The position numbers were made by a program, and so were the translations under genes. 51,980 nt of DNA, taken from the NCBI GenBank assembly GCA_905182345.1, contig CAJJBG010000016.1, positions 1-51,980 on the forward strand, read 5' to 3'. Shown one piece after another: positions 22,186 to 25,223 of the stretch (positions within the stretch are counted from its first letter, which is position 1; the number at the start of each line of letters is the position of its first letter). The notes under the pieces were generated by a model. The model had not been told where the DNA came from. It made no database searches and saw nothing but the letters and a program-made list of their open reading frames with translations. This stretch comes from Pelagibacteraceae bacterium AG-422-B15 (GTDB lineage Bacteria > Pseudomonadota > Alphaproteobacteria > Pelagibacterales > AG-422-B15).

Positions 22186-23859
<1,674 letters not shown>

Positions 23860-23879
23860 TTCGAGCTCAAATGCTTAAT

Positions 23880-23908
23880 AAAAAAACCCGGCTTAGCTGG
23901 GTTTTTTT
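23880..23908 (+). terminator. Rho-independent terminator after groEL
   Basis: An A-rich upstream arm and CCC-G-GC pair with GC-T-GGG followed by a run of T. The core AACCCGGC-TTA-GCTGGGTT forms a near-perfect stem with one G-T wobble, 21 bp after the groEL stop. The upstream A run also makes it usable on the other strand for the minus-strand transcript ending at 23947. Confidence 0.9.
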
Positions 23909-23946
23909 ATGCCTCAAAATCTAATTATTATTCTTTTCTTATTTCT

Positions 23947-24165
23947 TTAAATTGCTTTTGGGAAGTTTACAACAGCTTCTTCAGATAAAGGTGTCATAAC
24001 TGTAGTTTCAGTAAGGGCACCAGTATCTTCTCTTGCTTTGGCTAATTCTGCATCATTTTTAAATCCCATCATTCCATGCTCTTCTATTTTAGCTTTATTT
24101 TCCTGAAGCATATTTTTTCAGGAAACAAATCCCTTACTTAATTTTTGCGTTAACATTACGTACAT
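23947..24165 (-). pseudogene. Small gene interrupted by an in-frame TGA (or two coupled mini-ORFs)
   Basis: An ATG at 24165 is preceded by AAGGAGAT, a perfect Shine-Dalgarno and the strongest in the window. The frame reads 15 codons (MYVMLTQKLSKGFVS), then TGA at 24118-24120, then 56 more codons in the same frame to TAA. The restart ATG at 24111 gives MLQENKAKIEEHGM... and ends TETTVMTPLSEEAVVNFPKAI. The context before the stop (GFVS-x-KNMLQENKAKIEEHGM) resembles small YciI/monooxygenase-like marine proteins where a Trp would be expected at the TGA. The joined protein seems to lack a middle strand. I judge it a recently broken gene; the family assignment is from memory and uncertain. Confidence 0.6.
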
Positions 24166-24198
24166 AATTTATCTCCTTAATTTAAAGTTAAAACAAAA

Positions 24199-24217
24199 AT
24201 AATGAAACGATCATTAT
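24199..24217. promoter_or_regulatory. Inverted repeat ATAATGA-N5-TCATTAT
   Basis: A perfect 7-bp dyad with a 5-bp centre (AACGA), 34 bases upstream of the broken small gene. Its size and symmetry are like a TetR-type operator. On the minus strand it is followed by a T-rich stretch, so a weak terminator for the DUF2805 gene is also possible. No local regulator gene is present. Confidence 0.35.
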
Positions 24218-24259
24218 CTAACATAGTCTAAATTGTCACACATAAAAAATTGAGATGAC

Positions 24260-24514
24260 TTAGCTTTTTTGCTTTTTTGAACGAAATCTCTCTGATAAAT
24301 TAAGGATCTTAGTTTTTCTTCCTCGAACTCTTTTTCTCCAATTCAGAAAAGAGGTTCTTTTAAGGCTGGCTTTCATAATAGCAATAACTTCTTTTTCCGA
24401 CAAATCAAATTGAATCTTGATATCGCTAAAAGTTGTTCTGTCTTCCCAACCCATTTCAATAATCCTATCAATATCTTTTTGAGATAACGATTTAGTGTGA
24501 GTTGAATTCTTCAC
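24260..24514 (-). CDS. DUF2805 / TIGR03643 family protein
   Basis: An 84-residue basic protein with no known function. The core DIDRIIEMGWEDRTTFSDIK, then FDLSEKEVIAIMK and FLNWRKRVRGRKTK, is the DUF2805 (TIGR03643) signature. The arrangement looks like a small helix-turn-helix followed by a basic tail, so nucleic-acid binding is plausible but not shown. It lies 7 bp after hisG and may be the last gene of the his transcript. Confidence 0.85.
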   Translation of the reverse strand: MKNSTHTKSLSQKDIDRIIEMGWEDRTTFSDIKIQFDLSEKEVIAIMKASLKRTSFLNWRKRVRGRKTKILNLSERFRSKKQKS

Positions 24515-24521
24515 AATATAG

Positions 24522-25223
24522 TTACGATACTGAAGCTAAGAATTGTTCACTAATTTTCTCTAGATTAGAATTCCAATTGGCTGTTTGATATTTAAAAATA
24601 TTTGCAGATGAATTTAGTATCAATCCATCATCTAGTATTCTTAAATTATTTGCTTTTAATGTTTCACCTGTAGATGTGATATCAACTATAATATCTGACA
24701 TGCCATTAAATGGGGCGCTTTCTGTTGAGCTTGAACTGTTTACTGTTCGATAATCAGTAACTCCACATTTAGAAAAAAACCGATTTGTTAAATTTGTATA
24801 TTTAGTTGCAACTTTAAGGCGCTTAGAGGTCTGTATTCTTTTGATGTGGCTAATTTCATCCAAATCAGCCATCGTGCTAACATCAAGCCAAATCTTTGGA
24901 ACTGCCACTACTAAATCAGCCTTACCAAAATTTAATACCAATTCATTAGACACTTTTGTTTCATAATCAAACATATATTCTTGTATTAAGTCATCACCTG
25001 TAACTCCTAAGTGAATATTTCCCTCAGCTAATTGAGTAACTATTTCTTTTGCACCCATAAAATATATTAGAATACCTTCATGATTAGATAATTTAGCAAT
25101 ATAGTTTCTATCATTACCTTGATCTATAAAATTAATCTTTTTAGAAGCAAGCAGGTCTTCAAGATCTTTTCTGAGTCTGCCCTTACTTGGAAAAGCTATT
25201 TTTAATGTAGATTCATTATTCAT
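24522..25223 (-). CDS. hisG: ATP phosphoribosyltransferase catalytic subunit, short form
   Basis: A 233-residue enzyme for the first step of histidine synthesis (ATP + PRPP to phosphoribosyl-ATP). It has the short HisG architecture, lacking the C-terminal regulatory domain, so it needs HisZ, which is encoded 3 bp upstream. Signatures are FPSKGRLRKD, GVTGDDLI and DIIVDITSTGETLKANNL, the PRPP-binding loop. The gene order hisS-hisZ-hisG places histidine synthesis and tRNA-His charging under one promoter. Confidence 0.93.
   Translation of the reverse strand: MNNESTLKIAFPSKGRLRKDLEDLLASKKINFIDQGNDRNYIAKLSNHEGILIYFMGAKEIVTQLAEGNIHLGVTGDDLIQEYMFDYETKVSNELVLNFGKADLVVAVPKIWLDVSTMADLDEISHIKRIQTSKRLKVATKYTNLTNRFFSKCGVTDYRTVNSSSSTESAPFNGMSDIIVDITSTGETLKANNLRILDDGLILNSSANIFKYQTANWNSNLEKISEQFLASVS

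Follow-up and report, generated by a model that had tools for sequence, protein, structure and literature searches.

The small minus-strand gene described here is very probably a pseudogene of a DUF3764-like protein, the ancestor of which had 97 to 99 residues and a predicted alpha/beta-barrel fold. It lies in a stretch of 51,980 nucleotides that is referred to here as the window (Table 1). The layout given in the first-pass annotation was confirmed at 24165-23947: a perfect-looking ribosome site (AAGGAGAT), a spacer of 5 nt and an ATG open a frame of 15 sense codons that is closed by TGA, and the same frame continues for 56 sense codons up to a TAA. The simplest reading in that annotation was that a Trp-to-stop change had killed the gene and that an internal deletion might have occurred as well; comparison with relatives bears out both lesions. 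The long open frame is meaningful because it is homologous along its whole length to a real protein family; the expected product would be a 15-residue peptide, or none. We regard the decay of this locus as ordinary, although it is mildly notable because pseudogenes are said to be few in this lineage. Its interest lies in gene loss in progress at one site, where the cassette can be compared directly in its intact form, in partial versions, as a broken remnant and as an empty site, in the setting of a streamlined, SAR11-like marine lineage; a claim of recoding or of a two-peptide device is disposed of, and the locus is otherwise ordinary.

Table 1. Features of the probable pseudogene and its surroundings in the window
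Feature	Position	Strand	Remarks
Probable DUF3764-like pseudogene	23947..24165	-	15 codons, TGA, 56 codons, TAA; 27 internal codons gone
Ribosome site AAGGAGAT	24171..24178	-	5 nt 5' of the ATG
In-frame TGA, codon 16	24118..24120	-	TGG (Trp) in the homologues counted in the text
"Restart" ATG	24109..24111	-	Conserved Met19 codon, in the hairpin loop
Hairpin 5' arm TTTCCTGAA	24117..24125	-	
Hairpin 3' arm TTCAGGAAA	24099..24107	-	
GGAATGA, one copy kept at the deletion junction	24069..24075	-	Present twice in L133, 81 bp apart
94-nt leader, DUF2805 to pseudogene	24166..24259	-	Resembles the GYD-gene leader of L133
DUF2805 / TIGR03643 protein, intact	24260..24514	-	Upstream neighbor; hisG, hisZ and hisS precede
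groEL	22204..23859	+	Convergent neighbor
Terminator-like inverted repeat	starts 23881		Between groEL and the pseudogene

Intact relatives of the broken gene

When 60 related genomes were searched with the read-through protein, 28 gave a match, including the window's own, and the matches within its family were split into query residues ~1-29 and 28-71 with extra residues between them. In tblastn, each of 19 relative loci showed Trp at residue 16 as well as 27 extra residues. Among 53 genomes of the family, 34 were matched, namely, that of the window and 33 of the 52 others, with the matches in the latter covering residues 1-97 without an internal stop. A wider search of 397 genomes matched 120 (the window's own included); the stops flagged there in close relatives sit at query residue 98, which is the normal end, and one TAA was flagged in a distant match with 29% identity (G365). 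No second copy was found in the window's genome, which is 98.7% complete. The nearest relative found, here referred to as L133 (metagenome-assembled genome Alphaproteobacteria bacterium BS30m-G7), has an intact gene of 99 codons with TGG at codon 16, and the 72-residue read-through protein aligns with its residues 1-32 and 60-99 at 89% identity over the shared part.

The codon at position 16, TGA in the window, is TGG in all 27 distinct homologues taken from the genome-search loci, which were picked solely by a ATGTATGTNATG start with LTQK nearby, a filter that dropped other loci, the window's own included. It is also TGG in 38 of 38 pattern-found loci (35 of them distinct), a set partly chosen for the Trp, which one of its two search patterns contains; for this reason, the count of 27 is the less biased one. 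Most intact homologues have a GGAG-like site at about the same distance from the ATG. What is seen of the once high expression suggested in the first-pass annotation is a good ribosome site.

The full-length relative L021 scored 27.7 bits against PF12594 (DUF3764), above the gathering score of 24, and scores below it were obtained for L133 (21.3 bits) and others (20.3 and 18.9 bits). The intact proteins thus fall within this family or close to it. While intact relatives match its model, the 72-residue protein of the window matched no Pfam model up to an E value of 1, and it differs from them in lacking the central 27 residues and in having a stop at the invariant Trp. A profile search for sequence relatives in the PDB, up to an E value of 1, found none, and the sole mention returned by a whole-word literature search for DUF3764 was a table entry, in the part of PMC10434023 that is accessible. 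In the sister family (f2), a strong and a weak DUF3764-like match adjoin each other in several genomes (G334:C8:4988-5533 and similar places), which suggests a tandem pair.

An 81-bp deletion between short direct repeats

The window copy is short of exactly 27 codons (81 bp, in frame) that every full-length relative compared has. The L133 gene has a direct repeat, GGAATGA, at positions 91 and 172 (a spacing of exactly 81) that bounds the codons missing from the window; it is the only 7-bp direct repeat within the searched ranges of that gene. The junction in the window is what the loss of one L133 repeat unit would leave. Since the repeat ends coincide exactly with the ends of the deletion, replication slippage between the two copies is the likely cause. 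Pseudogenes arising from a nonsense change and a slippage deletion between short direct repeats are a recognized kind. The window shares with them the premature TGA and a deletion that ends at a 7-bp direct repeat and differs from them solely by its hairpin, which is apparently due to chance.

The missing residues correspond to residues 33-59 of L133, which hold two strands (residues 32-39 and 46-53, β2 and β3) of a confident structural model of that protein (pLDDT 86, pTM 0.72). Among dimeric alpha/beta-barrel proteins (ABM, Dabb and DUF1330), it is ABM-type structures that this model resembles; its best PDB matches are ABM-type barrels (top match 3e8o_B; E value, 2.1e-4; TM score, 0.57), but sequence identity to them is no more than about 15%, and the likeness does not indicate a function. 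The model of the read-through protein, built from a shallow alignment and thus of supporting value only, has no confident fold (pLDDT 50, pTM 0.25). Judged by these models, the structural core is lost, with β2 and β3 being absent from the remnant, which would not be expected to form an ABM-type barrel.

It is conceivable that a sequencing, amplification or assembly error produced the TGA, the deletion or both and that the true gene is intact. The family relatives come, by their titles, from Pelagibacteraceae single-cell or metagenome assemblies, and slippage at short repeats occurs during amplification as well. We consider such an error very unlikely, as biological decay better explains why a single gene of 300 bp has two independent lesions, and the other genes of the cassette described below are absent both around this gene and anywhere in an assembly that is 98.7% complete.

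Divergence from the nearest relative

Over codons 17-72, the window and L133 differ by 13 synonymous and 7 replacement changes (dN, 0.054; dS, 0.527), and the frame after the TGA is otherwise clean. This constraint implies either that the lesions are recent or that the remnant is still under selection. No sister sequence with the same TGA and deletion was found, and the dN/dS ratio to L133, which is low, spans the whole branch. One of the replacements hits an Ala (residue 75 of L133) found without exception in the 14 intact rows of the alignment, a hint of relaxation. That the 81-bp deletion is in frame is a 1-in-3 outcome and was counted against decay. The dS of the pseudogene against L133, about 0.55 and based on few sites, is lower than those of hisS, hisZ, hisG and the DUF2805 gene (0.80-1.26).

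It is highly unlikely that the remnant is still translated and kept; in that reading, the loss of the β-hairpin and the stop would have turned a barrel protein into a short leader peptide plus a 54-residue protein made by re-initiation, with the hairpin tuning their coupling. In a milder form of this reading, the stop would have been written by a hairpin-templated (quasipalindrome) mutation. A point against decay is that SAR11 is said, in an excerpt of PMC10308909, to have few dead genes.

A hairpin around the stop and an old Met codon in its loop

The first-pass annotation had pointed to a perfect pairing of 9 bases around the stop with an in-frame ATG in the loop, and this was confirmed: the arms TTTCCTGAA and TTCAGGAAA pair at 9 of 9 positions and enclose a 9-nt loop with the codon-19 ATG. 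At the homologous arm positions of the 38 loci, 2 to 7 of the 9 possible Watson-Crick pairs are formed, and the pairing is perfect in the window alone. The whole window contains 11 perfect inverted repeats of at least 9 bp with loops of 3 to 15 nt, compared with 2 to 10 (mean of about 7) in 10 dinucleotide shuffles, and at least one such repeat was present in 28 of 2,000 shuffles of the 219-nt gene. The RNA folding z-score was -3.1 for a tight 41-nt piece and -1.6 and -1.8 for pieces of 66 and 141 nt, respectively. Within positions 23,800-24,600, an Rfam search returned six matches up to an E value of 1, all below gathering, and hence no known conserved RNA element. The hairpin is therefore a real but modest feature, several of which are expected by chance in a 52-kb window of such composition.

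Two arm changes are the window's own, G48A (the stop itself; unique) and T42 (a third codon position; unique among SAR11-like relatives), and the arm base G63 is shared with 1 of 37 other loci. An imperfect arm position becomes a Watson-Crick pair through G48A and, probably, another through T63G. Changes that perfect an imperfect palindrome would fit chance noticed post hoc, or a quasipalindrome-templated mutation; template-switching mutation is the topic of PMC8604942 and PMC8794818, as far as their excerpts go. The gain of arm pairs is no test of templated mutation, because the palindrome itself drew attention to the locus.

A translationally coupled two-peptide device, in which the stop lies in the stem and re-initiation at the loop ATG yields a 15-residue and a 54-residue peptide, had been offered as an alternative and would account for the next in-frame ATG lying 6 nt past the TGA, within the loop. 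However, all 38 homologous loci have this ATG as their ordinary Met19 codon, the 20 nt 5' of it contain no Shine-Dalgarno-like GGAG, and the hairpin is absent from relatives; the 54-residue product would, according to the model, lack β1, β2 and β3. Such a device is thus extremely unlikely. Since related genomes have intact copies, both the hairpin and the restart codon are best read as by-products of decay and not as a new control device. The hairpin probably arose from codon drift at two coding arms, with the loop ATG being the old Met19 codon. The first-pass annotation had stated beforehand that plain decay would be indicated by intact homologues that have TGG and lack a conserved hairpin; this pattern was found, and therefore plain decay is the reading that we adopt.

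Decoding of TGA

The genome of the window encodes release factor 2 (prfB, above the cutoff). According to ARAGORN, its tRNA-Trp has the anticodon CCA, and none of the 31 of 32 tRNA matches that the program read has UCA, the remaining one (L098) giving no gene. A search for tRNA-Sec gave no match above the cutoff, with the best two matches being tRNA-Ser genes. TGA also ends 4 of the 43 long ORFs in the window. TGA is, by these predictions, an ordinary stop in this genome, since release factor 2 is present, tRNA-Trp has a CCA anticodon and no UCA suppressor was found. The chance that TGA is recoded as Trp or selenocysteine to give a 72-residue protein, a reading to which the 56-codon continuation with its low dN/dS and the stem surrounding the TGA lend themselves, is negligible, given this decoding machinery, relatives that, wherever read, have the Trp as TGG and neither Cys nor a conserved TGA, a stem that is not conserved and a product that would lack two of the four modeled barrel strands. 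Neither alternative raised by the first-pass annotation, recoding or a two-peptide device, finds support. A stop-codon recoding signal (for read-through or Sec) was considered as a candidate and rejected: the homologues read show no conserved in-frame stop or stem, and no decoding tRNA was found among the tRNAs read.

A probable last remnant of a variable cassette

In L133, the gene order is hisS-hisZ-hisG-DUF2805-GYD-ABM-DUF3764-g94-groEL, where g94 encodes a protein of 94 residues. At the same site, genome G004 has GYD-ABM-SnoaL-cupin-g94, and a contig of G003 begins in ABM and continues with g94 and groEL, without DUF3764; in G002, the site is empty, with DUF2805 adjoining the groEL terminator. 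The window holds only the broken gene, and relatives of SnoaL, GYD, g94 and ABM were absent from its genome (98.7% complete, 39 contigs) at an E value of 0.001; because of this, we infer that a cassette was eroded or exchanged here and that the broken gene is what is left of it.

The 94-nt leader aligned with the GYD leader of L133 with a score of 55, which was reached by 0 of 500 shuffles, and aligned more poorly with the L133 ABM-DUF3764 gap (41 of 500 shuffles). Its match to the leader in G004 was not significant (94 of 500). The leader may thus have been taken over from a GYD gene, as L133 suggests and G004 does not. On the minus strand, hexamers spanning 24239-24210 resemble a promoter, but the match was not above shuffles. 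Downstream of the pseudogene, the match of the tail at 23902-23946 to g94 was reached by 24 of 500 shuffles, and a longer tail scores higher because it includes the groEL terminator.

Taken together, we propose that the ancestor was a DUF3764-like barrel gene in a small variable cassette (GYD, ABM, DUF3764 and the 94-residue protein; elsewhere also SnoaL and cupin) located between the hisG-DUF2805 genes and groEL. The neighboring cassette genes, absent from the window's lineage, would have been lost, an 81-bp in-frame stretch would have been deleted between two GGAATGA copies, probably by replication slippage, and the conserved Trp codon 16 would have become TGA.

The gap between DUF2805 (24260) and groEL (23859) in the window is a variable cassette site that corresponds to positions 4356-5615 of L133, 4000-5745 of L058, 1-401 of L140 and 5355-5470 of L059. 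In the window's genus and L133, its content ranges from nothing to differing combinations of small alpha/beta-barrel, SnoaL and cupin genes. The cassette might travel from one lineage to another, or it may be very constrained. The g94 protein of L133 (5331-5612) is 98% identical to those at G003:C15:117-398 and G004:C3:35460-35741, and the hisG proteins of L133, G003 and G004 differ by 11-22% from that of the window.
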